A stretch of 63,925 nucleotides of DNA from Bacteroides sp. (GTDB lineage Bacteria > Bacillota > Clostridia > Oscillospirales > Ruminococcaceae): positions 1 to 63,925 of the forward strand of contig JAMPHV010000005.1 of the NCBI GenBank assembly GCA_023663265.1, read 5' to 3'. A program made the translations under genes and the position numbers. Shown piece by piece: positions 40,095-63,605 of this stretch; position 1 is the stretch's first letter, and each line of letters starts with the position of its first letter. The notes beneath the pieces were generated by a model. It was not told the origin of the DNA. It saw only the letters and a list, made by a program, of their open reading frames with translations, and made no database searches.

Positions 40095-40940
40095 ATGCAC
40101 ACTGATGAGAAGCTGTTTGAATTGGAACGCTCTGCTATTGCAACAAGCTTACGCTGTAATTTTAAATGTAAATTGTGTGGCGCTTATTCCCCGTATTATA
40201 ATAACGCACCCATTTTTAGCTATGAAAATTTAACGCGCTCCATAGAAAAAATTTTTTCTATGGTTGATAGGATCAATAAGTTTACGATTACGGGTGGAGA
40301 ACCCTTTTTGCATCCACAATTATCAGAAATAATCAGCTATATTTTATTATATAAAAAACAAATTGGCACACTGGAAATTATAACAAACGGAAGCATAGCA
40401 GCAAATACTAATTTAATAAATGTGTGTAATGCTTCAAATCAAATTGAAATTTTAGTTGACGATTATGGACCTGATTTATCAAAAAATGTACTGTCTTTGA
40501 AGGAATCTTTTGAAAAAAATTCCATTTCATTTCGTATTCGTAAATATTATGGTGAAGATGCATATTGTGGAGGATGGATAGATTACGGCAGTCTTACTCA
40601 GAAGCTGTTTACAGATGAAGAGATCACTGAGAATTTTAATAAATGTTTTCAGCACAGTAAATTACATTTTTGTTGGACCATTGTTGACGGAAAAATGTAT
40701 CCTTGTTCTGTGACACGAAGGTGTTTAGAATTAGGTATTACTAATTATGACAATAGTGAATATATAGATTTATTTGACGAGCGTAGTTCAACAGAAAAAA
40801 AACAAAATCAAATTAAAAATATTGTTTCTAAAAAATACTTATCGGCTTGTGCATTTTGCAATGGATTTAATGAAAATTCTCCTCGTTTTCCTCCTGCGGA
40901 GCAGCTTACTTATGAAGAAATTTTAAAATTAAATAGTTAA
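40095..40940 (+). CDS. Radical SAM protein with PPAEQL C-terminal motif (pair 1)
   Basis: 281 residues. Radical SAM motif CNFKCKLC near residue 21, then FTITGGEPFLHP and LEIITNGS. The C-terminus has a second set of cysteines (CWTIVDGKMYPC, ACAFCNGF) and ends RFPPAEQLTYEE. The same Cys pattern and PPAEQL ending occur in the radical SAM protein at 60747. In both places a GT2 gene with a similar helical tail follows directly. AT-rich. SD AAAGGAG. Confidence 0.88.
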   Translation: MHTDEKLFELERSAIATSLRCNFKCKLCGAYSPYYNNAPIFSYENLTRSIEKIFSMVDRINKFTITGGEPFLHPQLSEIISYILLYKKQIGTLEIITNGSIAANTNLINVCNASNQIEILVDDYGPDLSKNVLSLKESFEKNSISFRIRKYYGEDAYCGGWIDYGSLTQKLFTDEEITENFNKCFQHSKLHFCWTIVDGKMYPCSVTRRCLELGITNYDNSEYIDLFDERSSTEKKQNQIKNIVSKKYLSACAFCNGFNENSPRFPPAEQLTYEEILKLNS

Positions 40941-41037
40941 AGCAATTTAAAAAAGGTTGTGTCTGATAGCCCATTTTGTATGCACATAATGAATTTCTAC
41001 ATTCTCCTAATTTACTTAAAGAAAGGTATTGCTTTTA

Positions 41038-42576
41038 ATGAAAATCACGGTTGTTACTCAGGTGTATAATTCTAAACAGTATATTGATAAATGCATAAAA
41101 AGTGTCTTAAATCAGAGCTACCGAAATTTTGAATACATAATTATAGATAATGGCTGCAATGACGGTACGGAAAAAATTATACAAGAATACTCACAGCAGG
41201 ACAGCAGAATCAAAGTAATACATATCGAAAAAAACACTATTTCCGCCATTTGGTACGAGGCTTTAATTAAGTATGCTACAGGCGAATATATGACAGTCCT
41301 TGACGGTGATGATTGGTTTGAATGTGATTACCTTAAACGCATGACAAAAATTATTGAGGAGACTGATTCCGATATAGTAACTACAGGAAGTTTTATGCAT
41401 ATTGGCACAACAAACAAAGTTTCTAAAAGAATGTGTGAAAACAGTCTCTTCTTGAACAAGAAAGAATTCGCACAAGGCTTTATATACTATCATGTTTTTT
41501 TTCGTGCCACGTGGGCTAAAATTATTCGTATGGATATAATAAAAAATACGCCCATCCTGTCTCCGAATGAAATTGGAGTTGCCTATGGAATAGATACTTT
41601 ATTTTGCTTTTCATGGCTAAGGAAAGCCAATAAAATATATATAGACAACTCCGTCCTCCACCACTACCGCATTCATGCGAAATCAAGCTCCCACCAATAC
41701 GACCCCCGTCAATCCTACTCCGACCTCTACCTCTTCAACGACGCCCTTGACTTTCTTGCCCCCTACGGTCCCATAAGCGAAAACAACCTTTTCTTTCTAC
41801 ACCTTGTTTACTCCAACGCCATAAACGACACCTTGCAGAATATTGTAGGCTCAACGCTGTCTCCCTCCGAAAAGCTGGAGGAGTATTACAAAATCTTGGA
41901 GCGGCAGGTAACCAAAGAGTGCTATGGGAGAAGGGACGAGAATATAACGAATAATAAGCTCAGGCTGTTTTACGAGGTGTTCAGAACGTTTTCCGAGCTT
42001 GAAGAGATACCTCAAAAGTGGAACGGTATTTTTTCCGCCTATCTTCCGAAATGCTGCGGGGCGGTCTCGATACAGTCTATGAGGTTAGCCGCTGCGGAGC
42101 CGAGCTTTTTTACGGCGCTTATGAACGACTCCCCGGAAACGGTTATCGGAAAGCTCCTCGCCCTGCTCTCCCAAAACAAATACACCAAGCAATTCGATCT
42201 CCCTTTGATCCTTCTTTCCCTTTCCCATGATCACCCTCTTTTGTCCGCCGTTGACGACCCCAAATTCCTTAAAAAATACGGGGATATATACCTTATGCTG
42301 TACAGGAACAAATACGGGGAGGCGCTGGACGCTATGACCGATATTTTGCTTAAAGACAAGGTGAATAACGAGACCTTCTTGCTGCTGTACGTCAATATCG
42401 CCGCGCTGCTGGAAAAGATAGACGAGTTTATTTTCGGCAAGATCAAGACCGCAAGCTTCCTCCTTTCGGCAAAGCGCTTTGACGAGTGCAGAGAGATTCT
42501 CGCCGATCTTGAGGAAATGGGAGTTCAAGATAACGACGAAATAAGCGATATTAAGGCAAGGCTTAATGAACAGTAA
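41038..42576 (+). CDS. GT2 glycosyltransferase with helical C-terminus (pair 1), mosaic
   Basis: 512 residues from the ATG at 41038 (GAAAGG upstream). GT-A motifs: TVVTQVYNSKQYIDKCI, IDNGCNDGT, VLDGDDWFE near residue 88. The helical C-terminal region (YGEALDAMTDILL, NIAALLEKIDEFIFGKI) matches the end of the GT2 at 62013. The base composition switches abruptly near 41640: AT-rich with A/T third positions before, GC-rich afterwards like the chromosome. The gene looks like a recombinant of an imported GT half with a resident tail. Confidence 0.88.
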   Translation: MKITVVTQVYNSKQYIDKCIKSVLNQSYRNFEYIIIDNGCNDGTEKIIQEYSQQDSRIKVIHIEKNTISAIWYEALIKYATGEYMTVLDGDDWFECDYLKRMTKIIEETDSDIVTTGSFMHIGTTNKVSKRMCENSLFLNKKEFAQGFIYYHVFFRATWAKIIRMDIIKNTPILSPNEIGVAYGIDTLFCFSWLRKANKIYIDNSVLHHYRIHAKSSSHQYDPRQSYSDLYLFNDALDFLAPYGPISENNLFFLHLVYSNAINDTLQNIVGSTLSPSEKLEEYYKILERQVTKECYGRRDENITNNKLRLFYEVFRTFSELEEIPQKWNGIFSAYLPKCCGAVSIQSMRLAAAEPSFFTALMNDSPETVIGKLLALLSQNKYTKQFDLPLILLSLSHDHPLLSAVDDPKFLKKYGDIYLMLYRNKYGEALDAMTDILLKDKVNNETFLLLYVNIAALLEKIDEFIFGKIKTASFLLSAKRFDECREILADLEEMGVQDNDEISDIKARLNEQ

Positions 42577-42577
42577 A

Positions 42578-42622
42578 AAATAACCGTTTTAAAAGCGTTA
42601 CCCGCTTTTAAAACGGTTATTT
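42578..42622. terminator. Bidirectional terminator between GT2 and lipoprotein genes
   Basis: A perfect long stem, AATAACCGTTTTAAAAGCG with its complement around a 5-base loop, placed between convergent stops. Confidence 0.85.
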
Positions 42623-50168: not shown

Positions 50169-50600
50169 TTAATTTCTTCGTATCCTTTCCAAATATTCTC
50201 CGTAATCCCTAAGATTATCCTCGGGAGACCTCCAGCCCTCCGCCACGCTTTCCACGGTCAGCCTTATCCTTTGTATATTGAGCGGCGGCTCCCAAAAATC
50301 AAATACTCCCGTAGAAATAAAATCCTCCGCTTCGCGTTCGTCAAAGCCGTCTCCGATGATAACAAAAGGAGAGACCCCGTCCGACAGTCTTTTTCTGAGG
50401 CTGCGGGCGGTTTTTAAGCCGTTGAAAAAGCTTAGGTCCTTATCTATGATTATAAGATCGAAGCGCTTTAATTCGATAGCCTCGATAGCCGTATATCCCG
50501 AATCCACTATAGCCAAATGATAGCGGCTCCTGTCCGACAGCGCCGCATAAATGACCGAGGACGTTCGGCGGTCGTTTTCTACTGCGAGTATGTTTATCAT
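50169..50600 (-). CDS. Stand-alone degenerate receiver-domain protein
   Basis: 143 residues forming a CheY-like receiver without an output domain. The putative phosphoacceptor is D53 in DLIIIDKDL and the acidic pair is E9/D10 (ILAVENDRR). The conserved Thr/Ser is replaced (IIGDG at 81-85) and the invariant Lys of the KP motif is replaced by Glu (FWEPP, E104), so normal phosphorylation switching is doubtful. It lies at the end of the late flagellar operon, 54 bases after the FliT-like gene, which suggests a motility or flagellar-assembly signalling role. Confidence 0.78.
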   Translation of the reverse strand: MINILAVENDRRTSSVIYAALSDRSRYHLAIVDSGYTAIEAIELKRFDLIIIDKDLSFFNGLKTARSLRKRLSDGVSPFVIIGDGFDEREAEDFISTGVFDFWEPPLNIQRIRLTVESVAEGWRSPEDNLRDYGEYLERIRRN

Positions 50601-50654
50601 AAAAAATCAACCTCTTATGTGAAAAATTTAATTTTCCGTTTCATTGCCCTCGAA

Positions 50655-51146
50655 TCAGAAGCTGCTGTCCAGCGATCCGCCCAGCTTCCCCGAGGGGTTG
50701 ACGCTTGAATAATAATCGATCTTTTTCTTGTCGTTTTTGAGCTGTACAAGCTGCTCCTTTGCCTCGTTGGCTCTCGAAGCAAATTGGACCTGCAAAGCCT
50801 TATCGTTTTCCGCTGCCTGGAGCTGAGCCGAGCGGAGACTTACTATCACGTTCTGCAAGGGAGCCAGCTCGCCGCCTATGCGCTGATTGGTGTTGGTGCC
50901 CGTGAGCATTCCGCGGATAAGGGCGCTCTCCTCGGGCTCAAAGCTGTCGATAAGCTGAGTGCACAGGCTTTTCACCTTCTCCATTTCCTCGATGATATCG
51001 TCCCTCTGCTGTACCTTTTCGGTCAGCTCCTCCGTTTTTTCGCTTTCTATCTGCATTATCGACGCGCCTATCTCGTTGTATTTCAAAAGATACTGCTCTA
51101 ATTTTCCAAAGCTTTCCGACAGCAATTTCACGTTTTCGTTTTTCAT
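50655..51146 (-). CDS. FliT/FlgN-like flagellar chaperone, putative
   Basis: 163 residues, wholly helical: a first helix FGKLEQYLLKYNEIGASIM, a strongly charged one (EKTEELTEKVQQRDDIIEEMEKVKSLC) and a Gln/Ala-rich one (VSLRSAQLQAAENDKALQVQFASRANEAKEQL). There is a disordered Gly/Ser C-terminus ending GGSLDSSF. Size, fold and position after fliS match export chaperones such as FliT or FlgN; sequence similarity is too weak to choose. ATG behind AAAGGAATT. Confidence 0.6.
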   Translation of the reverse strand: MKNENVKLLSESFGKLEQYLLKYNEIGASIMQIESEKTEELTEKVQQRDDIIEEMEKVKSLCTQLIDSFEPEESALIRGMLTGTNTNQRIGGELAPLQNVIVSLRSAQLQAAENDKALQVQFASRANEAKEQLVQLKNDKKKIDYYSSVNPSGKLGGSLDSSF

Positions 51147-51175
51147 AGGTCAATTCCTTTCATTGAAAAATCAAT

Positions 51176-51216
51176 AATATCGGTTTAAAAAGCGAATTGC
51201 TTTTTAAACCGATATT
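51176..51216. terminator. 18-bp perfect hairpin between fliS and FliT-like gene
   Basis: AATATCGGTTTAAAAAGC, GAATT loop, then its exact complement. It may attenuate or stabilise the operon mRNA, since the next gene starts 30 bases on. Confidence 0.7.
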
Positions 51217-51287
51217 AGCTTTTGATGCTTGCTTCCAAATCAAAGCGATAATTTGAAAGCTGCGCTTTGAGAGTGCTTTTTTTGCGG

Positions 51288-51686: not shown

Positions 51687-51707
51687 ATGGTCAATATCCT
51701 TTCGTAT

Positions 51708-51780: not shown

Positions 51781-54700
51781 TCACATTCCCATAAGCTGGT
51801 TGATGTAAGAGGACTGTCCGTTGATGTTGCCTAAAAGGGTCTCCATATTGGAGTATATCTTCCAATAACGATCCTGCTGCTGGTCGTAACGCTTCTGAAG
51901 CTTGGTAATGGTGGATTTTAAGCTTTCGATCTGCTTATAGATCGAGTTGTTGGTAGCGGAAGCGGTGCCCGAAACGCCCGCCTTTTCTACCAATGTACCT
52001 CTCTCGCCGGGACCTCCCGAGGTCTTGACCGCGGAGTTGATAATGCTCTCAAACTGAGCGGAAATACCGTTTTCGGAATCGGTAAACAGCTTGCAGAATT
52101 CGTCCGCGTACTGAGCGAAAATGCTTTCAAATTCCTCGTCGCTTATATCGCCGTCAAACTGAAGCTTGCCGTGATTGGTCCAGTTGCTGGAGGTGGTGAT
52201 GCCTAAGGTATAAAGACCTACCTTTGTGCCGTCCGCCGCGTCAACGGTGTTGTAAATAACGCTTCTGAGCTTGGACATAATGCTGGTCAAGGTCGAATCT
52301 CTGTAAAGAATACCTTTCTTGGCGAGGTTTTCCCACTTGGTCTGCTGGCTCTCGGAAAGGTCCATTTCCTCGATATCGTCGTCGGTGAGGAAATAGTAAT
52401 CGGTGTTGGGCTCGTCGTCCACATATCCGAATACCTCGTCGATAAGCTTGTTGTAATCCTCAACGAAGCTCTTTATAGCTTCGATGGGCTTTGAATAGTC
52501 GCGGGTCACCTCGTTGGTGAACTCGGTGCCTTCCGCCGACTGGGAGAAGGTGAAGGTGGTGCCGTCTACGGTGTAGGCGTTGGAGGTGGTCTCTACCTCA
52601 ACATCGTTTACTTCAAGGATAGTGTTCTTGCCCTGTGTGAAGTTTTCGCCCGGAGTGAAGCCCAATGCGGAAAGCAAGCCCTCGCTGCCGTCCTCTATCT
52701 CGATGGTGGTGTCTCTGCCGTACTCGTTGGCGGTAATGGTGAACTGATTGGTCAGCGTGGTGTGGGTCATCTTAACGCCCGCGTCGGAGGCGTTGATCTG
52801 CTTCATCATATCGGAAACGGTGGTCTCTCCGCTGAAAGAGAAGTCGTGACCGTTAATGGAGAAGTTGTAGTTTCCGTTGCCGTCCGCGGTAAGACCAAGC
52901 TCGTAAAGCTTCGAGGTGGTGTCCACCTGGCTGGTGATGCCCGCGGTGTTGGTCGTATCCAAGCCGAAATCGCTTACGCTGATAGCGGACTGGGTGATGG
53001 CGAAATCCTTGGGGCTGCCCGTATACGCGCCCTTGCCCTGCAAGGTTATGCTTCCGTCGGCGGCTACCGTCGCCTCTAAGTTTACAAGCTCGTTTCCGAA
53101 GGACAAAGCGCCTAAGTTGTTTTCGATATTGGCCTTGTTAAAGTCGAATACCGCCTGCTCCTTGGTATATGCGGCTATGTAGTCGTCCTCGTCCGCAACG
53201 GTGTGGAGCCCTGCCTCATCGTAAAGCGCCATTTTCTCGGATTCGCTGAGGCTGTCGTAATCCAGGGACATGATCCCGTCGTAGCTGTCCGCGATATCCT
53301 GAGCCTCCTGCTCGTATGCGGTATACTGCGCCGTGGTCTTAAATTCATCCTCGGTATATTCAAAATCCTCAAGAGCAACGTAATTTTCATCGCCCTCGTC
53401 GGAGGAAATTTCGCCGCTCGCCACCTTTGCGTCGTACGCCGCCTGCTTTGCGGAAGCGAACTGAGCGTCGTACGCAGCCTTCTGCTCCTTTTCAATGACC
53501 TTGTCGGTATTTGCCTGGGCGCCGTCCTTGATCGCCTGGACCTCCGTCTGATAATTCTCGTACAGTTTCTGACCGTATTCATCGTTAGCGATATAGGAGT
53601 CGATATCCGCCTGGGTGGTTGCCGACTTAACGATATCGGTATATTTTTCCTCAAAATAGTCCTTAAAGGAAACAAAGCCCTCTTCGGCGGAGTCCGCGGG
53701 GATCTCGCCGCTTACCGTTTTATCGTTGTATTCGGTACAGATCGCGTTGAAAATATCCTTCTGCTCCTGGGACATGGCGTTAAGGTCCGCTTCCCATTCC
53801 TGGTGCGAGCCCTCCACGGGCTTAAAGGTGATATGCTCCTCGATATCCTTGAGCATATCGTTGGCAATGCTGTTCTTTGCCTTTTCCATGAGGGAATCCG
53901 TTGCCTTGTTCATGGAGGCGTTGAATCTCGCAAGCGCCATATTTTCGGAGAAAGCCTTCTTATCGCTGTCGCTGAGGTTATTATCCCATTCCTTGAACTG
54001 GTCGTATATATCTCCCTCGCGCTGATTCAAAGCGATCTCCTTGAACAGCTCCACCTTGTCGGCGTTGGCGTCCGCCTTGATGCTGCCGTCGGCTTCGAAT
54101 ATATCGTCAAAATAATCCGCGGAAATGGTGGTAAAGGAAACCGTCTTGGAGGTATCGCCCACGGTGACCGTAAAGCTGTTGTTGCCCGTTTTCATATCGG
54201 CGATATTGCCCAAGCTGCGGGTGTCCTTATAAAGAGTGGGGTTGCCCGTAACCACCGCAGATTTGTCGGAGGAGGTGAACTTGTTGTCGGAGCCGATGGA
54301 AACGATGTTGCTGCCGTCGGTCCTGGTGCCGAATACGGAAAGCTGAGCGTTTATGTTGGCTCTCACCTCGTCCTCGGTGCCGCCCTGGAAGGTGATGTTC
54401 TTGCTCTTTCCGTTTACGGATACGGACATGGTATAGGTCTCGCTGCTGTCGCTGCACTTGGACAGATCGGAAGCCTTGCCGTTGGTGCCCGAGGATTTAA
54501 GGGTAGCCTGGGTAGCCACCTGGTGCACCTTTACCTTATATGTGCCGGGGTTGGCGTTTACGTTGCTGGACACCTTAACGCCGTTTACGTTGGTGCCCAT
54601 GGAATTTGTGAGAGTGCTCTTGAAGGAGTTGAAGAGACCCGTGGATTTCAAGCTGGTGGTGCCGTTCAGTATGTCGAAATACTTATCCTTGAAATTGGTG

Positions 54701-54873
54701 AAGCTGGTGATCAAGGAACGGTAAGCCTCCTGCTGCGCCTGAAGCTTGAGCACCTTTCTTTCGTTGGTGTTGATCTTGCTCTTGGTGGTGGACGTTAAGG
54801 CGTTAACTATCGCCTCGGTATCCAATCCCGAGTTCATACCGCTCATTCTGAGAGCGCTTGTTGCATTAGCCAT
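51781..54873 (-). CDS. fliD: Flagellar filament cap protein FliD (HAP2), expanded
   Basis: 1030 residues; usual FliD is about 450-700. The N-terminal domain (RMSGMNSGLDTEAIVNALTS, coiled-coil VLKLQAQQEAYRSLI) and the C-terminal domain (KPIEAIKSFVEDYNKLIDEV ... TITKLQKRYDQQQDRYWKIYSNMETLLGN) are normal. Between about 252 and 590 there is a large acidic, helix-rich insertion (EALFKEI, YDQFKEWDNNLSDSDKKAF, many D/E/K/A and Tyr), followed by the beta domain. FliD caps the growing filament and may bind host mucus. The insert would form an extra exposed domain. Confidence 0.93.
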   Translation of the reverse strand: MANATSALRMSGMNSGLDTEAIVNALTSTTKSKINTNERKVLKLQAQQEAYRSLITSFTNFKDKYFDILNGTTSLKSTGLFNSFKSTLTNSMGTNVNGVKVSSNVNANPGTYKVKVHQVATQATLKSSGTNGKASDLSKCSDSSETYTMSVSVNGKSKNITFQGGTEDEVRANINAQLSVFGTRTDGSNIVSIGSDNKFTSSDKSAVVTGNPTLYKDTRSLGNIADMKTGNNSFTVTVGDTSKTVSFTTISADYFDDIFEADGSIKADANADKVELFKEIALNQREGDIYDQFKEWDNNLSDSDKKAFSENMALARFNASMNKATDSLMEKAKNSIANDMLKDIEEHITFKPVEGSHQEWEADLNAMSQEQKDIFNAICTEYNDKTVSGEIPADSAEEGFVSFKDYFEEKYTDIVKSATTQADIDSYIANDEYGQKLYENYQTEVQAIKDGAQANTDKVIEKEQKAAYDAQFASAKQAAYDAKVASGEISSDEGDENYVALEDFEYTEDEFKTTAQYTAYEQEAQDIADSYDGIMSLDYDSLSESEKMALYDEAGLHTVADEDDYIAAYTKEQAVFDFNKANIENNLGALSFGNELVNLEATVAADGSITLQGKGAYTGSPKDFAITQSAISVSDFGLDTTNTAGITSQVDTTSKLYELGLTADGNGNYNFSINGHDFSFSGETTVSDMMKQINASDAGVKMTHTTLTNQFTITANEYGRDTTIEIEDGSEGLLSALGFTPGENFTQGKNTILEVNDVEVETTSNAYTVDGTTFTFSQSAEGTEFTNEVTRDYSKPIEAIKSFVEDYNKLIDEVFGYVDDEPNTDYYFLTDDDIEEMDLSESQQTKWENLAKKGILYRDSTLTSIMSKLRSVIYNTVDAADGTKVGLYTLGITTSSNWTNHGKLQFDGDISDEEFESIFAQYADEFCKLFTDSENGISAQFESIINSAVKTSGGPGERGTLVEKAGVSGTASATNNSIYKQIESLKSTITKLQKRYDQQQDRYWKIYSNMETLLGNINGQSSYINQLMGM

Positions 54874-54878
54874 AGCGG

Positions 54879-55109
54879 TTAATCCTCCTTTTTGAATTTG
54901 AACAGTCCCTCAAGCGTTTCCTTTGAAATCTCTCTTGAGGAATCCTCGTTTATATTTTGCGTATCGAGAAGCTCGTTTCGGATAATTTTAACATCCTTCG
55001 GAGCAGAAATACCTATCTTGACGCGGTCCTTTGAAACCTCTAAGATGGTGACCTCTATGTGGTCGGCAATGATAACGCTTTCTTCGGTTTTTCTTGTCAC
55101 AACTAACAT
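54879..55109 (-). CDS. csrA: Carbon storage regulator CsrA
   Basis: 76-residue RNA-binding dimer that represses flagellin translation. N-terminal MLVVTRKTEESVII and the core VTILEVSKDRVKIGISAPKDVKIIR are classic. The tail is longer than in proteobacteria, as usual with FliW partners. It begins two bases from fliW. Confidence 0.97.
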   Translation of the reverse strand: MLVVTRKTEESVIIADHIEVTILEVSKDRVKIGISAPKDVKIIRNELLDTQNINEDSSREISKETLEGLFKFKKED

Positions 55110-55111
55110 TA

Positions 55112-55555
55112 TCAGCCCTCCTTTTCGGTCTCGCTGTTTTTAAATATGGGCTGACGGTAGGGATAGTTGCTCGGAAGAATAACCTGCATAGCCTTCTTCG
55201 TGTCCATATTTATTACTATCGGGGATTTCAAATTAACGGTGGTTTCCTTGTAATCCTCGGGGACTCTCGCAATACAAAGCACCTGCAAATTGGTCTTTTC
55301 GTTCACCTCGAGCATTGCTTTTTCGCCGCTGTTCAAGGTTATCTCATAGTCCTTGCAGATGAGCCACGGGTCGAACACGATAAAGCAGGGCTTTATCGAA
55401 TCGATACACTGGAGCCATACGGGAAACTGACCCTTTTCGATCTCAATAAGCGCGAATCTTTTTGCGTCCTCGAAGGCGTATATTCCGTTGGGAAATTCCA
55501 ATATCTGCTCCTCGCCGATCTCCATTGTCCCGAAATCTCTTGTTTCTATTTTCAT
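55112..55555 (-). CDS. fliW: Flagellar assembly factor FliW
   Basis: 147 residues. FliW binds flagellin and CsrA in a partner switch that couples flagellin translation to export. Family landmarks: ILEFPNGIYAFEDAKRFALIE, FLVQ-like PVWLQCIDSIKPCFIVFDPWLI, and MKSPIVINMDTKKAMQVIL. Adjacent csrA supports the call. Confidence 0.96.
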   Translation of the reverse strand: MKIETRDFGTMEIGEEQILEFPNGIYAFEDAKRFALIEIEKGQFPVWLQCIDSIKPCFIVFDPWLICKDYEITLNSGEKAMLEVNEKTNLQVLCIARVPEDYKETTVNLKSPIVINMDTKKAMQVILPSNYPYRQPIFKNSETEKEG

Positions 55556-55577
55556 TATACACCTTCCTTAACGTTGG

Positions 55578-56183
55578 TTATGCCCAAGACTGAAATTCCG
55601 GATCGGGGAAAAACATAGGGTCTCCCAAATAGGTTATGTCCACGTAAGCCTTCTGCACTATATCAAAATTAACTGTGCCTCTCTGAAGCTGATACGGTAC
55701 GATCTGCGTGTTTTCCCAGTCTATGTTTACCTGCGTCGGACGCTGGGAAATATCCGTTGTTCCGGGATTGACCGTTATTTCGGGCGGCACCGAGGGGTAA
55801 AAGGCTATATTGGCGTCCACGGGCTCGTTTTTTCGCATAAACTCGGATTTTGCTATCTGCGCGGGGGGAGTGCGGTTTTCCTCCACCATGTTCCCCTGCT
55901 GAACGATGCTTCTTGTCGCCTCGTCGGCCACTTGATAGCCCTTGTCCGCGTAGTACCTTACCAGCGACGCGTCGCTTAGCTGACCCACGCCCATGCTTTC
56001 CCTGCAAGGCTTTGTGTCCACCTCTATCAGCGCCCTTGTGGTATGCACCTCCAAGCCGCCCAAATCGGTGGTCTGTCTGAGAAACTGCTGATTTGTCCCG
56101 GGATTCACCATTCGGGGGTGATTTATGGTGGTGTTCATCACGGTGTCTTGTATGTTGTAGCTTAAAAGATTAAAGCCTACCAT
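55578..56183 (-). CDS. DUF6470/YviE-like protein of the flgL-fliW operon
   Basis: 201 residues. Not membrane-bound. N-terminal MVGFNLLSYNI and beta-rich centre; the phrase GGLEVHTTRALIEVDTKPCRESMGV and the end VQKAYVDITYLGDPMFFPDPEF fit the YviE/DUF6470 family that lies between flgL and fliW in Bacilli and Clostridia. Function is unknown; position suggests late filament assembly. SD AAGGAGG. Confidence 0.8.
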   Translation of the reverse strand: MVGFNLLSYNIQDTVMNTTINHPRMVNPGTNQQFLRQTTDLGGLEVHTTRALIEVDTKPCRESMGVGQLSDASLVRYYADKGYQVADEATRSIVQQGNMVEENRTPPAQIAKSEFMRKNEPVDANIAFYPSVPPEITVNPGTTDISQRPTQVNIDWENTQIVPYQLQRGTVNFDIVQKAYVDITYLGDPMFFPDPEFQSWA

Positions 56184-56224
56184 ATGATCGCCTCCTTTAA
56201 TGATCTATATAACTTGACAGGAGC

Positions 56225-57517
56225 TTAGCTTATAAAATCGAAGATCGACTGAGGAATTACCGAGCCGCTCATTTGAAGAGTAGCGGAGTAAATGCTGCCC
56301 AGCATTTTCCAGGTGGTGGTCTCGGAGGGGAAGTCGGTGGATTCCAGGTCGTTCTGACGGCTTGTGAGCGTCTCTAAGTTGTTTGTGATACGCTCCTGGT
56401 TGAACTCGATAAACTTTGTGGTATTGCCTATCTCGGCAAGGGTAAGAGATACCTTGGTCTGCAGGGAGTAGATATGATCCGCGTAGCGGGCGATCTCCTT
56501 GCCGTCGCCTCTTCTTATTACCTCGGCGGCGTCGAGAATGCTCTGCAAAATATTGTTGGAATAAGCGCTGCCCTGGTTTTCTGTCTTGAGCTCCGCGCCG
56601 TTTTCGCTGGTGTCCTTTATCTTGACCTGCTTTCCGTTAAGGTTGTTGACGATGGTGCCGTGCTCGTAAACGGTGATCTTGTCGCTTCCCACCGCGTCCT
56701 TTATCGCCGCGTTTATCGCGTCTCTGCTGGCGTTGGCGTCCGCGCCGCCCGTGAAAGTGACGTTGTATTTGTCGAGCTGATCGCCCTGGTTGCCTATCGT
56801 CAGCTCAAAGGAGTACTGCACGCCGTCCTGTATCTCGTCCAAATCGATAAAGGAGGTGGTGGGCTGCTTGCCGCAGCCTGTGCACTCAACGCCGTTCAAG
56901 GTGAGCTTTAACGCCGACTGCTCGTCAATTCTGCCGTCCGCGCCCAAGGTCATGCCCAAGCCGATATCGCAGTAGGAGGATACCGCGTCGGGGAACATTG
57001 CGGGATCGCTGTACTGGTCAACGGGCACTCCGTTATATGTAACGGTTCTGCCGTTTACTATATTGAAAGCCTTTTCGTCGTTATTAACGCCGCCGAATAT
57101 CCTTCTGTCCGCAACGGTAAGGTTCATAAGGCGGGAAATTTCGTCCGCATACGCCTCAACGCCCGTGGCGAGTATCTCCATATCCGAGGGGGAGTGGGTG
57201 TGCACCTCGGAGCTGGTGCCGTTGGCAGCCTCTATGCATTTTTCGTAGGTGGTCTGAATGATCTCGGAGATCGCCATTATCGAGGATTCCGCGTTGGCGT
57301 AGATATTGTCCGCGGTGGTAAGATTATCCTGGTAGTTGTTCAGATTGGCGATGGCTTTTCTTACTCTCATAGCGGAAGCCGCCTGGGCGGGCATTTCGCT
57401 TGCCTGCTGGAATTGGCGGTAGCTGGATATCTTCTGCTCCGATTTATACTTAAGGGAGTAGTTCTTTTCGAGGTTGCTTACATAATTTCGTGTTATTGTG
57501 GCGTTGGCTATTCTCAT
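56225..57517 (-). CDS. flgL: Hook-filament junction protein FlgL (HAP3)
   Basis: 430 residues. Flagellin-like N-terminal coiled coil (MRIANATITRNYVSNLEKNY, SEMPAQAASAMRVRKAIANL) and C-terminal helix (FNQERITNNLETLTSRQNDLES) surround a variable domain. Exported by the flagellar type III system and joins hook to filament with FlgK. Confidence 0.95.
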   Translation of the reverse strand: MRIANATITRNYVSNLEKNYSLKYKSEQKISSYRQFQQASEMPAQAASAMRVRKAIANLNNYQDNLTTADNIYANAESSIMAISEIIQTTYEKCIEAANGTSSEVHTHSPSDMEILATGVEAYADEISRLMNLTVADRRIFGGVNNDEKAFNIVNGRTVTYNGVPVDQYSDPAMFPDAVSSYCDIGLGMTLGADGRIDEQSALKLTLNGVECTGCGKQPTTSFIDLDEIQDGVQYSFELTIGNQGDQLDKYNVTFTGGADANASRDAINAAIKDAVGSDKITVYEHGTIVNNLNGKQVKIKDTSENGAELKTENQGSAYSNNILQSILDAAEVIRRGDGKEIARYADHIYSLQTKVSLTLAEIGNTTKFIEFNQERITNNLETLTSRQNDLESTDFPSETTTWKMLGSIYSATLQMSGSVIPQSIFDFIS

Positions 57518-57556
57518 TTTACGATCGTCCTTTCATTATTCGGCTTTACCTAAAGC

Positions 57557-59161
57557 TTATCTGCCCGCTAAGCCCGTGTTGTTGATAAGTCTGTCTACGC
57601 ATTCGTCCATGGTGGTGAGCATACGCGAGTTTGCGTTGAACCATTTTTGGAAGTTCATCATATTTACGCCCTCCTCCGTCTCGGAAACGCCCGAAATGCT
57701 CTGTCTTACGTCGAGTATGGAGTTTGCGTTGTCGGAGTTTAAGTCGTACTGCTCTTCATAGTAGCTTATGCTTTCGGCTATGCGGTCGTCCACGAACAGA
57801 CAGTAATCGTAAATGGAGCCCGTAAATTCGCCCGCTCTGCCTACCTTTATGGGATTATCCAAGCCCAAATACAATGTGTTCACCATATTGCCGTCCAAGG
57901 AAAGGTCCCATGTCAATTCGTCCTTGTCAACGTCGTAGGTGGGGTTCCTGCCTATCATGGTCGCCTCCGCCATCCACTCGTCGGAAATTCTGATGTTGGA
58001 GGCGGTGATAGCTACGTCCTTTATCTCGTTGCTGTCCTTGTCGTACTGCTTGTCGGCGGCGAACATTGTCCTTGAAAGGTCCGTTTCCGTCACCTTGTTC
58101 CCGTCCTTATCGGTGTAGGAATACTGACCGCAGAGATCGTTCATCAGCTTGGCGAAGGAGCTTGCAAAAGCGTCCAGCGTGGAGCGGTAATAGGGTATGC
58201 CGTATTCGCTGTTCTGATAAAACGCCGCGTAGGTGCCGTTGCCGTTGAGCATATCCATTCTTGCCTTAAGATCGCCCGTCAGAACGTTGCTGCTGACAAA
58301 TTCGCCGTTGGTGAACTGGAGCACCGCCGCGCCGTATTCCTCGTAATCCTTCATAATTACGTGCTCGTACTTGGTGCCGTTCACAATGGTGGTGCCGCCC
58401 ATCTCTATCTTGACCGAGCCGTCGTTGTTGTCGGAAACGCTGATGTTTCCGTAATAGGAAAGCTCGTCGATAAGCTGATTGCGCTGGTCGAGAAGCTCGT
58501 TGGGTCCGTAGGAGCCTATAACCGTTTCGCCGTAGTATATCTTGTCGGCGGCGGTAATGTTGTACTCGCCCGTGATAACGCCGTTGTAGGTCACGATTTT
58601 GTCGATAAGCTCGTTGACCTCGGAAACGGATTCCTGCAAGTCGATTATATTTTCGTTTTTGAGATTGTCAAGCTTGGTGGCGTAGTCTCTTAAGGTCTGC
58701 GTAACGGAGTAGCACTCGTTCCTTACGATGCTGGCAAGCTCCAAATTATAGGGGGAATCCGCCGCGTACTTTGAAAACGCGGTCTTTACGTCGTTAAGGT
58801 TCTTTATAAGACCTGTTTCGTCAATATCGCTCAGTATCTTTTCGGCTTCGCTCAAAACGCTTTTCTTAACGTCAAATTCCGCTACGTAAGCGGTAAATTC
58901 TCTGTACCGCTTGTCTACGTATTTGTCTCTTATCTGATTGACTCCGAAAGCGTTTACGCCCTGACCCGTAAGGGAAAGGCGCGCAAGCTTGGAGCCGTAT
59001 TTGCCCGAAAGGGGAATGAACGTGGAATTAAGATCCACGCGCTGTCTGCTGTAACCCTCGGTGTTTATGTTGGACAGGTTATTGTTGGTTATATCCAACG
59101 ATTTCTGCGAAATCTGAATGGTGCGTTTTGAAACCTCGTAGCCTACAAAAGTTGAGCGCAT
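57557..59161 (-). CDS. flgK: Hook-filament junction protein FlgK (HAP1)
   Basis: 534 residues. Axial-protein start MRSTFVGYEVSKRTIQISQKSLDITNNNLSNINTEGYSRQRVD is characteristic, and the C-terminus ends with GVNMMNFQKWFNANSRMLTTMDECVDRLINNTGLAGR. SD GGAGGATTTTT. Paired with flgL just downstream. Confidence 0.97.
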   Translation of the reverse strand: MRSTFVGYEVSKRTIQISQKSLDITNNNLSNINTEGYSRQRVDLNSTFIPLSGKYGSKLARLSLTGQGVNAFGVNQIRDKYVDKRYREFTAYVAEFDVKKSVLSEAEKILSDIDETGLIKNLNDVKTAFSKYAADSPYNLELASIVRNECYSVTQTLRDYATKLDNLKNENIIDLQESVSEVNELIDKIVTYNGVITGEYNITAADKIYYGETVIGSYGPNELLDQRNQLIDELSYYGNISVSDNNDGSVKIEMGGTTIVNGTKYEHVIMKDYEEYGAAVLQFTNGEFVSSNVLTGDLKARMDMLNGNGTYAAFYQNSEYGIPYYRSTLDAFASSFAKLMNDLCGQYSYTDKDGNKVTETDLSRTMFAADKQYDKDSNEIKDVAITASNIRISDEWMAEATMIGRNPTYDVDKDELTWDLSLDGNMVNTLYLGLDNPIKVGRAGEFTGSIYDYCLFVDDRIAESISYYEEQYDLNSDNANSILDVRQSISGVSETEEGVNMMNFQKWFNANSRMLTTMDECVDRLINNTGLAGR

Positions 59162-59206
59162 ATAAAAATCCTCCTAAAAATTTGAGTTTACCGTTTTCGT
59201 ATTGCG

Positions 59207-59689
59207 TTACACGTTTCCTATGATATCGCCGCCCGAGCCGCTTCCGCCCTTTACGAAGCGCGCGTCGCCCGAGTATGCGCCGATACCCGTCAGATCGTTT
59301 ACGCCGAGAAGCTTTGACTGTACCTTTATTTTTCTCTCCACCAGATCGTTGGATATCTCATTGATTCTTTTTATTTTGGCAATGGAATTGTTGAGCCGCT
59401 GGCTTTGAAGCTTAAACGCGGGGATATAATCCTCGGGAAAGCGATCGGTCAGATCCGCCAGCTTAACGCCCTTTATCCCGACCTGCTCGAAAAGGGCAAG
59501 CCTTTTGTCCTCTAACGAATTGCCCTTCATGATATAGCCCTGCTCGTCTACGAGCGCGCTTTCAAGCCATGCAAGATCGTCCTTGAGAATATGGTTCTGC
59601 TTCTCCAAGAGAAAATCGGCAAGTCTTTCAAAATGAGAGTTATACTGATCGAGAAATCTTATGATAATTTCGGCGGTCTGAACAGTCAT
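59207..59689 (-). CDS. flgN: Flagellar export chaperone FlgN
   Basis: 160 residues. A helical chaperone for FlgK and FlgL: helices FERLADFLLEKQNHILKDDLAWLESALVDEQGYI and LQSQRLNNSIAKIKRINEISNDLVERKIKVQSKLL, then a Gly-rich flexible end. It lies between flgM and flgK as usual. Confidence 0.93.
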   Translation of the reverse strand: MTVQTAEIIIRFLDQYNSHFERLADFLLEKQNHILKDDLAWLESALVDEQGYIMKGNSLEDKRLALFEQVGIKGVKLADLTDRFPEDYIPAFKLQSQRLNNSIAKIKRINEISNDLVERKIKVQSKLLGVNDLTGIGAYSGDARFVKGGSGSGGDIIGNV

Positions 59690-59701
59690 AGCGCCGCCCC
59701 C

Positions 59702-59983
59702 TTATTGCCCGAGAATAGCCTTGGCAATGATCTCGGAGCTGACGGGGCAGCTGTCGCCGCTGTAGGCGGCCTGAAGCTGTTCGATCTTGGCGGCGTTGGC
59801 TTCCGCCTCGACGCTGCTCGCCGTGTTGGCTTTGGCTGCGGCTAACGCGCCCGCAAAGTCGAAATCCACCTTGTCGGTATTGGCGGGAGCCCTGCCCTTT
59901 TCCTTTTTGCCCGCGGAAACGTTCGCGAATTTTTCGTATGAGCGTATCGCGCTTGCGTTAGGTATTAAATTCTTTATCTCCAT
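59702..59983 (-). CDS. flgM: Anti-sigma-28 factor FlgM
   Basis: 93 residues from the ATG at 59983 (AAAGGG upstream). N-terminal part disordered, Ala/Lys-rich; C-terminal helices with the family end AAYSGDSCPVSSEIIAKAILGQ. FlgM blocks sigma-28 until exported through the completed hook. Its own promoter is sigma-28 type, giving feedback control. Confidence 0.92.
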   Translation of the reverse strand: MEIKNLIPNASAIRSYEKFANVSAGKKEKGRAPANTDKVDFDFAGALAAAKANTASSVEAEANAAKIEQLQAAYSGDSCPVSSEIIAKAILGQ

Positions 59984-60198: not shown

Positions 60199-60570
60199 TC
60201 ATTTGACCGATCCCTTAAGAAGCTCCGCCGCGATATGTCCCAAAAGATTATACCGCTCCTCGGGGATACGGAGCGGGGAGCTGCCGTTCATTGCGGAAAA
60301 GGTATCCGCCAAATCGGAAAGTATCTTTTTCTGCCCGTCGGAAAGCCCCGCAGCCGAAACGGTGAACCGCTTTTCCATTCCGTAAAGCTCGTCGGCGGAG
60401 GTCCCCAGTATCGCCGCTATGGCGCGCACCGTTTCAAAGGGAGGGTATACCTGGTTGCTTTCGTATCTGCTGACGGTGCCCTCCGAAACCTCCAGCAGGG
60501 AAGCCAGCTTTTTCTGCGTCAGTCCCTTTTTCCTGCGAAGATTTTTTAACGTCAAACCGAAATCGTACAT
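60199..60570 (-). CDS. XRE-family transcriptional regulator
   Basis: 123 residues. N-terminal helix-turn-helix LKNLRRKKGLTQKKLASLLEVSEGTVSRYESNQVYPPFETV (residues 8-48), then a short helical C-terminus (SDGQKKILSDLADTFSAM) of the type used for dimerisation. SD GGAGG. It is divergent from the radical SAM-GT2 pair 2, whose promoter region contains a palindrome that could be its operator. Confidence 0.92.
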   Translation of the reverse strand: MYDFGLTLKNLRRKKGLTQKKLASLLEVSEGTVSRYESNQVYPPFETVRAIAAILGTSADELYGMEKRFTVSAAGLSDGQKKILSDLADTFSAMNGSSPLRIPEERYNLLGHIAAELLKGSVK

Positions 60571-60619: not shown

Positions 60620-60650
60620 ACTTGCATTTTATGTAAGTTTATGATATAAT
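60620..60650 (+). promoter_or_regulatory. Promoter and possible operator of radical SAM-GT2 pair 2
   Basis: TTGCAT (60622-60627), 17 bases, TATAAT (60645-60650). The -35 box lies in the near-palindrome ACTTGCAT-TTT-ATGTAAGT (60620-60638), a plausible site for the divergent XRE regulator. Confidence 0.65.
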
Positions 60651-60746: not shown

Positions 60747-61991
60747 ATGCACTATAAATTCAGATACGAATATCTTTTCGACGGCGTTCCGAGACCCGAC
60801 TTTCAAAAGCTGAGCGGAAATTTGGCGCTTTACGGGGCGGGCTTTCAGGGGCTGCTGGCGGCGCATCTGCTGAAAAAGCAGGGGGTGGAGATACTTTGCT
60901 TCGGCGACAGGGACGTAAGGAAGCAGGGTACCTTATATTACGGTATTCCCGTTGTTTCGCCCGAGGAGATGAAGGAAAAATATCCCGAAGCCGCGGTCAT
61001 GGCGACCCCCTACGGGTTAAGCTCGGTATGGGACTATATAAAAAACGAATTGAAATACAAAAACGTTATAACCCCCTTTTCGCTTTTTTTGGAATTTGAT
61101 TCCGACGAGTTTGATAAGCTGCCCGAGCTGCCTTTTTGGTATCACTCCGAAACCCTTGACCTTAACATTGAAATGTTTCTTATCAGGTGCGCTATGATCG
61201 AGACCGACCGCTGTTTCTTTTCCACCGATCTTTCTGTTACCGAAAAATGTAATCTTAAATGCCGAAACTGTACAAGCTTAATGCCGTGCTATGATAATCC
61301 GAGGGATTTTTCGTACGAAGAAGTTCTTGAAGACATTTCAACCTTGATCAAAGACAAAATATTTTATCGAATATGGATCGAAGGCGGAGAACCTTTTTTG
61401 TGGGAGCCGCTTTACAAGCTGTTAAATGCGCTGAGCGAGCAGGAGGAAATAATGAACATTGCGGTGGTCACCAACGGAACGGTAATGCCGGACTCCCGCC
61501 TTTTAAAATCGCTTCAAAATCCAAAGGTACAAGTGCGCGTTTCGGATTACGGCAATCAGTCAAAGTTGAAAAAACTCGTTGATACTTTGACTGACAATGG
61601 TATATACGTCAGAGTTCAGCTCCAAAAATGGTACAAGCTCGCCGATTTATCCAAGGAGCCGAAAACAGGCGAGGATTTAAAAGAAATTATCGAAAGCTGC
61701 ACCAAGCTCCAACCCGAATGTTCATTTTATACCAAAAACGGAAAGCTTTTCAAATGTCCCTTGCAGGGAAATTTGCATGAGCTTGGATTATTTCCGTCAG
61801 ACCCGAACGAATATGTTGATCTGCGGGATAAAAACGATCTCGATATACACCGTAAGATAACCGATTATTTTACAAAGCCGAACGTCCCCAAAATCTGCGC
61901 TCACTGCAACGGCAGGGGCTATACGGGGGTCGAGGTCCCTCCCGCGGAGCAATTACAAAAAGGAGAAAGGCTTACCGTCCGCTTTGAATAA
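60747..61991 (+). CDS. Rossmann-radical SAM fusion protein with PPAEQL motif (pair 2)
   Basis: 414 residues. The first about 125 form a nucleotide-binding-like domain (LALYGAGFQGLLAAHLLKKQG, FGDRDVRKQG, YGIPVVSPEEM), similar in outline to NDP-sugar-type domains. Then a radical SAM core with CNLKCRNC near residue 170, WIEGGEPFLWEP and VVTNGTVMP. The C-terminal cysteines (CSFYTKNGKLFKC, ICAHCNGRGY) and VPPAEQL ending match the shorter protein at 40095. It starts behind GGAGGA. The GT2 gene follows after 21 bases. Confidence 0.88.
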   Translation: MHYKFRYEYLFDGVPRPDFQKLSGNLALYGAGFQGLLAAHLLKKQGVEILCFGDRDVRKQGTLYYGIPVVSPEEMKEKYPEAAVMATPYGLSSVWDYIKNELKYKNVITPFSLFLEFDSDEFDKLPELPFWYHSETLDLNIEMFLIRCAMIETDRCFFSTDLSVTEKCNLKCRNCTSLMPCYDNPRDFSYEEVLEDISTLIKDKIFYRIWIEGGEPFLWEPLYKLLNALSEQEEIMNIAVVTNGTVMPDSRLLKSLQNPKVQVRVSDYGNQSKLKKLVDTLTDNGIYVRVQLQKWYKLADLSKEPKTGEDLKEIIESCTKLQPECSFYTKNGKLFKCPLQGNLHELGLFPSDPNEYVDLRDKNDLDIHRKITDYFTKPNVPKICAHCNGRGYTGVEVPPAEQLQKGERLTVRFE

Positions 61992-62012
61992 AAGCGGCTC
62001 GGGCATAACACA

Positions 62013-63605
62013 ATGAGCAGAATATATTTTCGCACCACCGCCTATAACGCGGAAGAAACTGTTGCGCGCTGTATCGAGAGCGCGCTGAATCAAACGAAAT
62101 ACGGCGGCGATATCCTATATTACATATGCGACAACGGCTCGACCGACAGAACGGGGGAAATAATTCTTGAATACGCTTCAAGGGACTCGCGGATAAAAGC
62201 CTTTTCCAATAAGATAAACCGAGTATGGGAGCCCGAGGAAAGGGAATTTGCGGAGCTTTGCCGCAGCTTGGAGGACGACGATCTTTACTGTCTGTTGGAC
62301 GCGGACGATTCCTACGACCTTGATTTTTTGGAAAAAATTATCCCTTTTATGAAAGAGAACCGCTTGGACATTGCGGCTTGCGGCAACAAATTCATAGACG
62401 TCGGGACGAACGCCGTAACGGGGACCCGCGTTCTGCCCGAGCCGCTTATTATCGGCGGCTCGGCGGATTTCTCCCGTTATTTCCCCTATTATCACCAATT
62501 TATGAGAACGGTATGGGGCAAGCTGTACACGGGAAAAGCGGCGCGGCGTATCTATACCAACGAGACGGTGCCGCCGAAATACCGCGATATGGCGTACGGC
62601 TCGGACACTCTGTATGTTTTTGCCGCCTTACGCGGCTGCGAACGGGCGGGGATATATCCCGAGCCGCTGTACAACTATTATGTTTCAAGCGGATCGGCTT
62701 CATACAAATGGGATAAAAGGCGCGTTGACTCGGATCGGCTGCTTTACGAGGACGCGGCGGAATTCCTGTCGCTGCACGGCGGCTTGTCCTATGATAACCG
62801 CATGTTTTTGGATTTGGTGTACGCCAACGCCGTGACCGACACGCTTAACGTGCTTAATAACGCAGACGGAATGACGCCCGCCGAAAGGCTGACCGAGCTT
62901 AAGAAGATCGCCGACTGCCCTTACACCTCGGAAGCCTTTTCGGTCGAGCATCAACACTGCCGCGAAAGCAAGACCCGCTTTCTTTCGTCGGTCCTGCGCG
63001 CCGCGTCGGAGCTTGGAGCGGAGAGCGAAAGGGAGCTTCGGTCGGTTACGGAAAAATATACCCCGAGCTGCGCTCCCGCCGTTGACCCGCGCACGGCGGA
63101 GCTGTTCGCAAGGGAAAAGGAATTTTTGAAAATTCTGACCGAGGACAACAGACCCTTGCTGATCGAGCTGCTGATAAAATACATCGGCGAAAACAAATTC
63201 GTAAAGCAGTACGATCTTGCGGGAGCGGTTTTCGCTTTGACAAAGGAAAATCCGCTTCTCTGCGGGATAAAAAACGCAAAATTTCTGAAAAGATACGGCG
63301 GTATCTATCTTTCGGTGCTTGCGGGCAGATACGGCGAGGCGCTGGAGCAAACGGCGGATATCCTTGTAAAAAAATATCCCCGCGACGAGGAGCTTATATT
63401 GCTTTGCTGCAATCTTGCGGCTCTTCTCGAGCAGGCGGACGAATTTATTTTCGCCAAGACCAGACTCGCGGCGTTCTATTTTTACAACGACCGTATTGAG
63501 GAATGCATGACCGTGCTCGAGCACCTTGAATATATGCGGGTAGAGGACACGGAGGAGATCGGGAGGATAAAGGAGAGAATAGGCTTTTATGAGGGAAAGG
63601 AATGA
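62013..63605 (+). CDS. GT2 glycosyltransferase with helical C-terminus (pair 2)
   Basis: 530 residues. GT-A domain: FRTTAYNAEETVARCIESAL, CDNGSTDRTGEI, LLDADDSYD near residue 90. The C-terminal helical part (YGEALEQTADILVKKYP, NLAALLEQADEFIFAKTRLAAFYF) is homologous to the C-terminus of the GT2 at 41038. With the upstream radical SAM gene it repeats the pair seen at 40.1-42.6 kb. The acceptor is unknown. Confidence 0.88.
   Translation: MSRIYFRTTAYNAEETVARCIESALNQTKYGGDILYYICDNGSTDRTGEIILEYASRDSRIKAFSNKINRVWEPEEREFAELCRSLEDDDLYCLLDADDSYDLDFLEKIIPFMKENRLDIAACGNKFIDVGTNAVTGTRVLPEPLIIGGSADFSRYFPYYHQFMRTVWGKLYTGKAARRIYTNETVPPKYRDMAYGSDTLYVFAALRGCERAGIYPEPLYNYYVSSGSASYKWDKRRVDSDRLLYEDAAEFLSLHGGLSYDNRMFLDLVYANAVTDTLNVLNNADGMTPAERLTELKKIADCPYTSEAFSVEHQHCRESKTRFLSSVLRAASELGAESERELRSVTEKYTPSCAPAVDPRTAELFAREKEFLKILTEDNRPLLIELLIKYIGENKFVKQYDLAGAVFALTKENPLLCGIKNAKFLKRYGGIYLSVLAGRYGEALEQTADILVKKYPRDEELILLCCNLAALLEQADEFIFAKTRLAAFYFYNDRIEECMTVLEHLEYMRVEDTEEIGRIKERIGFYEGKE

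Follow-up and report, generated by a model that had tools for sequence, protein, structure and literature searches.

Flagellin glycans matter for motility and for host and phage recognition. In Clostridium, Geobacillus and other bacteria, flagellin glycosylation islands bring together flagellin, family 2 glycosyltransferases with tetratricopeptide repeats (GT2-TPR), the CDP-glucose (cytidine diphosphate-glucose) synthase RfbF, sugar-modifying enzymes and FkbM methyltransferases. One study takes the combination of GT2 with TPR as the mark of a predicted flagellin glycosyltransferase and lists RfbF, RfbG, RfbH and RfbS (PMC13317340), and a second places FkbM genes in flagellar glycosylation islands (PMC5109656); the term "radical SAM" (S-adenosylmethionine) has 0 occurrences in the main text of either paper or of PMC2674064. 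Nor did the paper searches made, which covered open-access literature, yield radical SAM enzymes as recurrent members of flagellin islands. Radical SAM enzymes that act on sugar-like substrates include BtrN, an aminocyclitol dehydrogenase, and NeoN, the neomycin C epimerase (PMC10991966).

Here we analyze a 63,925-nucleotide stretch of contig JAMPHV010000005.1 (hereafter the window), in which an initial annotation had noticed two radical SAM-GT2 gene pairs, A and B, beside flagellar genes. Judging from their sequences, the radical SAM proteins form a family encoded with tailed GT2s in islands that hold flagellin, GmaR-like GT2-TPR proteins, a CDP-glucose synthase and FkbM methyltransferases. 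Flagellin glycosylation islands as such were already known; the recurrent, dedicated radical SAM family is the apparent addition. Our explanation, to which we give a probability of roughly 55% as a whole, is that pair A ends a flagellin glycosylation island and that pair B most likely contributes to this function as a further unit under regulation of its own.

Two related gene pairs in one genome

The two pairs consist of the following genes:
40095..40940, + strand: rSAM A, 281 aa, a stand-alone twitch-like radical SAM protein with CxxxCxxC and CxxCNG...PPAEQL motifs
41038 (ATG)..42576, + strand: GT2 A, with a C-terminal tail of ~300 aa (the open reading frame opens with TTG at 41029)
60747..61991, + strand: rSAM B, 414 aa, a small N-terminal Rossmann domain (~1-120) followed by a twitch-like radical SAM protein
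62013..63605, + strand: GT2 B, whose C-terminal tail and that of GT2 A are homologous

The coordinates and the shared order had been described correctly: in both loci the radical SAM gene precedes the GT2 gene, all four genes lie on the + strand, and the intergenic gap is 97 bases in pair A and 21 bases in pair B. The claim of kinship beyond the generic fold also holds, since rSAM A and rSAM B are identical at 75 of 277 positions (27% over 277 aa, E 3e-25) in an alignment that runs through the C-terminal CxxCNG...PPAEQL. GT2 A and GT2 B align over their full length, matching tails included (181/528 identical, 34%, E 3e-94). A comparison of B-type with A-type radical SAM profiles gave E 5e-61 over 259 columns (hhalign; trimmed B is itself a row in A4, the A-type alignment). 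The 2.39-Mb assembly holds no third member of either family: rSAM B matches itself and A, with the next match at E 0.02, and at E<=1e-25 GT2 B matches itself and GT2 A alone.

We considered whether one pair had recently been duplicated into the other and rejected the idea on the tree. rSAM A and rSAM B fall into separate clades (99/98 each), and GT2 A clusters with the tailed GT2s of five other loci (L055, L061, L067, L068 and L070; 99/99) to the exclusion of GT2 B. These placements argue that the pairs are two old lineages within one genome. The G+C content of rSAM A is 31%, compared to 44-46% in the preceding island genes, 34% in a neighboring radical SAM/SPASM gene and ~51% in the first 17 kb, and this low value points to a recent arrival of rSAM A.

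The GT2 tails were also compared with the TPR tails of flagellin glycosyltransferases. TPR_19 appeared at 0.088 in one of seven tailed GT2 members and not in GT2 B (Pfam), the GT2 A/B tail matched a GT2-TPR profile with an hhalign probability of 0.1%, and neither Pfam, hhalign nor PDB sequences revealed a detectable relation.

The island upstream of pair A

Pair A stands at the end of a run of genes on the + strand:
29694..31889, + strand: GT2 with a TPR tail, a GmaR-like putative flagellin glycosyltransferase, copy 1 (Pfam GT2 and TPR_14)
32066..34012, + strand: GT2, putative flagellin glycosyltransferase copy 2, which shares 60% identity with the first copy (Pfam lists GT2 but no TPR)
34040..34849, + strand: RfbF, glucose-1-phosphate cytidylyltransferase, making CDP-glucose (NCBIfam TIGR02623)
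34920..35822, + strand: GT2b, a conserved neighbor of RfbF (Pfam GT2)
35871..37100, + strand: polysaccharide pyruvyl transferase-like protein (PF04230)
37103..37729, + strand: hexapeptide acetyltransferase-like protein (PF00132)
37720..38856, + strand: FrhB/FdhB-like flavo-iron-sulfur protein, a putative redox partner (PF04432, PF04422, Fer4)
38963..39988, + strand: a separate radical SAM/SPASM protein outside the PAEQL family (PF04055 and SPASM PF13186)

The island in the window holds two GT2-TPR genes, one radical SAM/SPASM gene, one radical SAM gene of the family and no flagellin. The first GT2-TPR protein has both GT2 and TPR regions, and its best match among solved structures is GmaR (E 1.4e-24), the flagellin O-GlcNAc (N-acetylglucosamine) transferase of Listeria. 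RfbF clears the TIGR02623 cut-off (327.8 bits against 300.25), and copies of GT2b that are 50-73% identical adjoin RfbF or lie near it in relatives.

A rare family that recurs with flagellin genes

The radical SAM family is rare and patchy. Counting the window's own genome, it occurs in 6 of 295 genomes of the order (E<=1e-15) and 9 of 391 of the class (E<=1e-25). At family rank, 15 of 148 genomes match rSAM B at E<=1e-5; their open reading frames proved to be mostly MoaA and other radical SAM proteins, and the clear relatives besides the own genome are G147, G122 and G056 (genomes are numbered with G, contigs with C and loci with L). Same-genus genomes gave no match in three scans of 2, 8 and 1 genomes, and two flagellin-bearing stretches of the same-genus G015 hold neither a radical SAM nor a GT2-TPR gene by similarity to the reference set. 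A first scan of named genomes with rSAM B alone returned 25 stretches and no relatives. The named-genome scan that found relatives gave 20 loci, of which 11 (L066-L076) are full members from Oscillospiraceae, Vallitalea, Christensenella, Peptococcaceae, a Chitinispirillia bacterium and bins with less precise names; the other nine (L077-L085) match just ~70-120 core residues and were left unannotated.

We defined a core set of loci whose radical SAM protein scores >=300 bits against the A4 profile, itself drawn for the most part from these loci. It comprises 15 distinct loci, window included, with L069 counted once with L056 (100% identical genes). Tailed GT2s, required to align over >300 aa to a GT2 of the reference pairs, are present in nine of the 15, as are RfbF, GT2-TPR, FkbM and the pyruvyltransferase-like gene (window included in this last count); GT2b is present in ten and FrhB in five. 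In G181:C2 (L061), the order flagellin, GT2-TPR, RfbF, GT2b, pyruvyltransferase-like, acetyltransferase, FrhB, three radical SAM genes and tailed GT2 closely mirrors 29.7-42.6 kb of the window. The expected association of homologs with GT2s was thus borne out, and radical SAM genes with tailed GT2s recur in Vallitaleaceae, Christensenellaceae and Oscillospiraceae. However, the pairing is not obligate. The two genes are directly adjacent in window pairs A and B, L060, L061, L070 and L072, with genes intervening elsewhere; radical SAM genes outnumber tailed GT2 genes in L061, L067, L068, L070, L071 and L076; and G041 and G142 have a tailed GT2, running up to or close to a contig end, with no radical SAM match at E<=1e-5 in the scan of 148 genomes.

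The association with flagellar genes was likewise found elsewhere. In eight of the 15 core loci (window, L056, L060, L061, L067, L068, L072 and L075), the stretch examined includes flagellin, FliD or FliS. Flagellin itself is present in both G181 loci (C2, L061, and C4, L060), in G147 (L056), in Oscillibacter sp. 1-3 (L068), in L072 and in the Chitinispirillia locus L075, while Vallitalea L067 has FliD/FliS and the window has FliS, FliD, FlgL and FlgK at least 9 kb from pair A. A flagellin gene together with glycosyltransferase and sugar genes, the hallmark of a flagellin glycosylation island, is found in L056, L060, L061, L068 and L072, and in L075 without RfbF; in the window the flagellin gene is missing. 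Given each genome's own count of PF00669 matches, chance would place such a match within 15 kb, on one side or the other, of 0.47 of the 14 loci outside the window; six have one (P ~3e-6, uncorrected for kinship, with L060 and L061 sharing a genome). All ten named genomes tested with a core radical SAM gene have flagellin, compared to 140 of 391 in the class (E<=1e-20; L075 belongs to another phylum, to which the class figure does not apply), and so do G147, G181 and G056. Beyond the core set, flagellin, GT2-TPR and RfbF lie upstream of a Rossmann-radical SAM gene in G334, the flagellin gene at a distance of 14 kb on that contig, and in G559 such a gene lies between flagellins and FliD/FliS, with FliD ~4 kb downstream. 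The chance test and the flagellin frequency, weighed against the exceptions described below, indicate that the core group is flagellar; for the wider family, a general role in surface glycans is probable.

A radical SAM core with one predicted auxiliary cluster

Both proteins exceed the Pfam Radical_SAM cut-off of 29.5 bits (rSAM A 39.5, rSAM B 42.5), and neither matches SPASM PF13186 at E<=0.01. Exactly seven cysteine columns are invariant, in 23/23 A-type or trimmed members (A4) and in 11/11 Rossmann-fused members (alignment A6). Three of these form the CxxxCxxC of the SAM cluster and four lie in the C-terminal half, at C184, C204, C252 and C255 in A (23/23) and C318, C337, C384 and C387 in B (11/11). 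Their spacing, C-x~18-C-x~46-C-x2-C, fits the twitch pattern; in BtrN, whose single auxiliary cluster sits on four cysteines, the spacing is nearly identical. The conserved columns give us good confidence that the family would carry one auxiliary cluster of the twitch type. A tyrosine is also invariant (Y124 in A, Y268 in B), and no further cysteine that might serve as a hydrogen donor is present in all members of both alignments.

Curated models did not place the family more narrowly. No model more specific than the superfamily was above cut-off for rSAM A or B: N_Twi_rSAM (NF033640) was not reached (32.2 and 35.3 bits against 170), the best 25 of 32 and best 25 of 40 NCBIfam matches fell far short of their cut-offs and were confined to the core, and none of the scores listed for rSAM A in the 23-member scan cleared a cut-off. 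Among the solved proteins listed, 7wzv alone matches past the core and through the C-terminal CxxCxG, so that almost all of the radical SAM part is covered (E 1e-10 to 4.8e-16).

As the alignments indicate, members of the family either stand alone, like rSAM A, or follow a small Rossmann domain, like rSAM B. The extra N-terminal domain that had been noticed in rSAM B is real and Rossmann-like by Pfam and profile matches. A profile of ten B-type N-domains matched the UDP-D-quinovosamine 4-dehydrogenase 3nkl (E 6e-11) and VioB (0.0017), and Pfam PglD_N was found in four of 11 Rossmann-fused members (best E 1.5e-4). The same domain precedes FkbM methyltransferases (hhalign 99.4%, E 8e-22; five N-termini, from L056, L059, L067, L105 and L030). 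Its presence in sugar-nucleotide enzymes, methyltransferases and radical SAM proteins suggests that it binds a shared sugar-nucleotide or carrier ligand; it could also bind NAD (nicotinamide adenine dinucleotide). As a separate observation, a 662-aa protein in G122:C56 (L058, 13883-15871, - strand) has two radical SAM domains of the family with a Rossmann-like segment between them, and its gene adjoins NeuB-like and NeuA-like genes (labels by eye).

Putative redox partners and the possible fate of CDP-glucose

In L072 a single 619-aa frame (8969-10828) fuses FrhB, 43% identical to that of the window, to an A-type radical SAM protein. FrhB adjoins a radical SAM gene of the family in L061, L067 and L071 and is one gene apart from it in the window. 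From this fusion and adjacency FrhB is likely the electron partner of the radical SAM protein. Aldo/keto reductases with ferredoxin domains are also encoded near the radical SAM gene in L062 and L068 (Pfam) and in L060 and L067 (similarity).

RfbG, which the RfbFGH route to CDP-4-keto-6-deoxy and dideoxy sugars calls for, is by comparison with RfbF mostly missing. In 12 genomes chosen for RfbF-bearing islands, nine had no RfbG above cut-off, and in the three that did (G147, G334 and G559) the contigs carry it; the best RfbG match of the window's own genome scored 94.8 bits against a cut-off of 278.45. Since RfbF is present and RfbG mostly absent, CDP-glucose would be used directly or altered by something else, for which the radical SAM protein is a candidate. 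Weaker matches to short-chain dehydrogenases/reductases are present and several of the 12 genomes are incomplete, and a divergent or missed dehydratase may stand in place of RfbG.

Proposed function and alternatives

We propose that the GmaR-like GT2-TPR protein would put the first sugar on flagellin. The FrhB-like protein would reduce or re-oxidize the radical SAM enzyme, which would generate a 5'-deoxyadenosyl radical and abstract hydrogen from a sugar, altered most likely as a nucleotide sugar (CDP-glucose or something made from it) before transfer. The outcome would be either a ketone, by analogy with BtrN, or, by analogy with NeoN, an inverted center, and the tailed GT2 would then transfer, or extend with, the altered sugar. 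Oxidation or epimerization of a sugar, perhaps a nucleotide sugar, is the best-supported candidate function for the radical SAM enzyme. The confidence differs among the parts. The island very probably serves flagellin in the case of pair A; for pair B this is the better guess by a modest measure. The substrate of the radical SAM enzyme is probably a sugar; that it is nucleotide-activated we would put at slightly under even odds, and that it is CDP-glucose itself we think doubtful. The two roles initially suggested for the enzyme, sugar rearrangement and modification of a flagellin site, are indistinguishable here, while sugar chemistry has more support, all of it indirect, from the neighborhood, the shared N-domain, the redox partner, the aldo/keto reductases and the BtrN and NeoN precedents.

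Several observations weigh against this explanation. Seven of the 15 core loci have no flagellar gene in their stretch (L059, L066, L074, L070, L071, L073 and L076), although L059, L066 and L074 come from contigs of <7.5 kb and two others, L070 and L071, sit at the ends of theirs; the flagellin stretches of G807, G808 and G813, inspected for adjoining L070, L071 and L076, showed no island. L056 and L075 combine radical SAM and flagellin genes with no tailed GT2. In the wider family, G224, G487, G562 and G624 have no flagellin match, and in G122, G179, G343, G456, G486, G606 and G731 the radical SAM gene is on another contig than flagellin or far from it. The window's own assembly (G000) has no flagellin gene, its FlgL-like gene being the sole PF00669 match, perhaps because of an assembly gap over repeated flagellin copies. 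The flgM-flgK-side placement of pair B is shared by none of the other stretches examined, and a loose-pattern scan of the window found no sigma-D-type site before either pair. With respect to chemistry, the BtrN match (E 8e-5) stays within the core, at positions 4-110 of a 284-position profile, rSAM B itself has no Pfam match to PglD_N, and the N-domain profile also matches the NAD-binding proteins Rex (2e-5) and dihydrodipicolinate reductase (9e-4). A flagellin-glycan role has gained support for pair A over what the window alone offered and lost some through wider-family members without flagellin.

These exceptions bear most on the possibility that the pairs serve another surface polymer (capsule, teichoic acid or lipid-linked glycan), their closeness to flagellar genes being fortuitous or a result of shared island hot spots. 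This reading, which suits pair B best, with its own regulator and no flagellin nearby, draws on the occurrence of the wider family outside flagellar loci and on the pyruvyltransferase-like, acetyltransferase and FrhB genes, which are general surface-polysaccharide genes. In G181 (twice), G147, G334, Oscillibacter sp. 1-3, L072 and L075, however, flagellin lies upstream of the sugar genes, and in the window the 11 genes from 28772 to 42576 gave no Pfam match to a flippase or polymerase family. We regard it as unlikely.

The radical SAM protein might instead modify the flagellin polypeptide, at a side chain or alpha carbon, and the GT2 glycosylate the new group, as in the maturation of ribosomally synthesized and post-translationally modified peptides. 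Flagellin is a neighboring candidate substrate, and the curated models matched include the peptide maturases WgkB, HxsC and PapB, far below cut-off and in the core only. The lack of a SPASM match in A and B, with conserved cysteines for one auxiliary cluster only, speaks against it, as do family members in genomes without a flagellin match and an N-domain common to FkbM and related to nucleotide-sugar enzymes. We consider this improbable. Finally, that rSAM A and rSAM B are unrelated superfamily members paired by coincidence is hardly credible: most weak matches in the family-level search are indeed MoaA and other generic radical SAM proteins, but the window alignments and the A/B profile comparison refute this, and the radical SAM-tailed GT2 combination recurs in the three families named above.

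Regulation and surroundings of the pairs

The regions around both pairs contain these further features:
40037..40065, + strand: sigma-A-like promoter before rSAM A, 11/12 matches (consensus match only)
42578..42622, + strand: long, terminator-like inverted repeat after GT2 A, with a 20-pair stem
50169..59983, - strand: late flagellar gene block (Pfam and by-eye labels)
50169-50600, - strand: response regulator (Pfam)
51288-51686, - strand: FliS (Pfam)
56225-57517, - strand: FlgL (matches PF00669)
60199..60570, - strand: XRE/HTH_3 regulator, divergent from pair B (PF01381, PF13560)
60621..60650, + strand: putative imperfect palindrome and extended -10 between the XRE gene and pair B

The pairs had been described as flanking the late flagellar operon. 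This is accurate for pair B, from which the XRE gene alone separates it, whereas pair A lies ~7.6 kb away, beyond three lipoprotein and two redox genes (labels by eye, unscanned). The FliD, FliW, FlgK, FlgN and FlgM labels in the block were recognized by eye. A regulator belonging to one of the pairs had also been claimed; the XRE gene is divergent from pair B. The imperfect palindrome CTTGCAT-TTT-ATGTAAG (60621-60637) adjoins an extended -10, TGATATAAT (60642-60650), and this juxtaposition makes it plausible that the XRE protein controls pair B. Signs of sigma-D control of the pairs were looked for and not found. The loose sigma-D pattern occurs at seven places in the window, compared to 1.9 expected from shuffles, and two of these precede genes (60149, - strand, before the FlgM-like gene, and 26925, + strand, before 26999-27952); the other five lie inside genes, three of them as copies in repeated lipoprotein genes.

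Other features of the window were recorded. The site at 26925, TAAA-N15-GCCGATA, precedes a 317-aa protein (to 27952) without a Pfam match, possibly an unrecognized member of the flagellar regulon. The FliD-like protein (51781-54873) has 1030 aa and is ~2x as long as the 498-aa FliD-like protein from Vallitalea. Three tandem similar genes at 42632-47240 resemble solute-binding lipoproteins (by eye, unscanned), with no transporter genes between them. Further upstream lie a 2337-aa protein (17590-24603), whose GH94 catalytic and glucoamylase-like domains are reminiscent of cyclic beta-1,2-glucan synthases, and a T-box leader (8227-8468, - strand; Rfam RF00230, 111 bits).

Comparison with known systems

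In a described glycan locus, that of the Campylobacter jejuni HS:19 capsule, a radical SAM gene stands next to methyltransferase and glycosyltransferase genes (PMC8743553), a hint by analogy that radical SAM enzymes may be more widely spread in glycan loci. Among glycosyltransferases, GmaR resembles the protein at 29694-31889, whereas its profile match to GT2 A/B is weak (E 9e-6), the tail of the latter being of another, unrecognized kind. Of the radical SAM enzymes on sugar-like substrates, BtrN is related to rSAM A/B by sequence in the core alone, and NeoN is likened to them by their proposed function. The likeness to PDB 7wzv/7wzx/7x0b ("4Fe-4S cluster-binding domain-containing protein") extends through the C-terminal CxxCxG (E 4.8e-16). 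Sugar-nucleotide enzymes of the WbpM/PglD/VioB type resemble the N-domain of the B-type proteins; in those enzymes the domain precedes a dehydratase or acetyltransferase, and here it precedes a radical SAM enzyme.

If the enzymes act on sugars, radical sugar chemistry would extend beyond antibiotic pathways to a protein on the surface of common anaerobes; the bearers include an apparent isolate, Oscillibacter sp. 1-3. A more speculative generalization, which we hold to be a long shot, is that in Clostridia and beyond flagellin sugars are made by radical chemistry: RfbF would supply CDP-glucose, FrhB-fed twitch-type radical SAM enzymes would oxidize, epimerize or deoxygenate it in place of RfbG/RfbH, and a matched tailed GT2 would add the product, with a separate radical SAM enzyme for each altered position, so that the glycans of flagellin would form a combinatorial code. 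Compared to the known flagellin islands, those described here differ in that a radical SAM enzyme is recurrent and RfbG is mostly absent.

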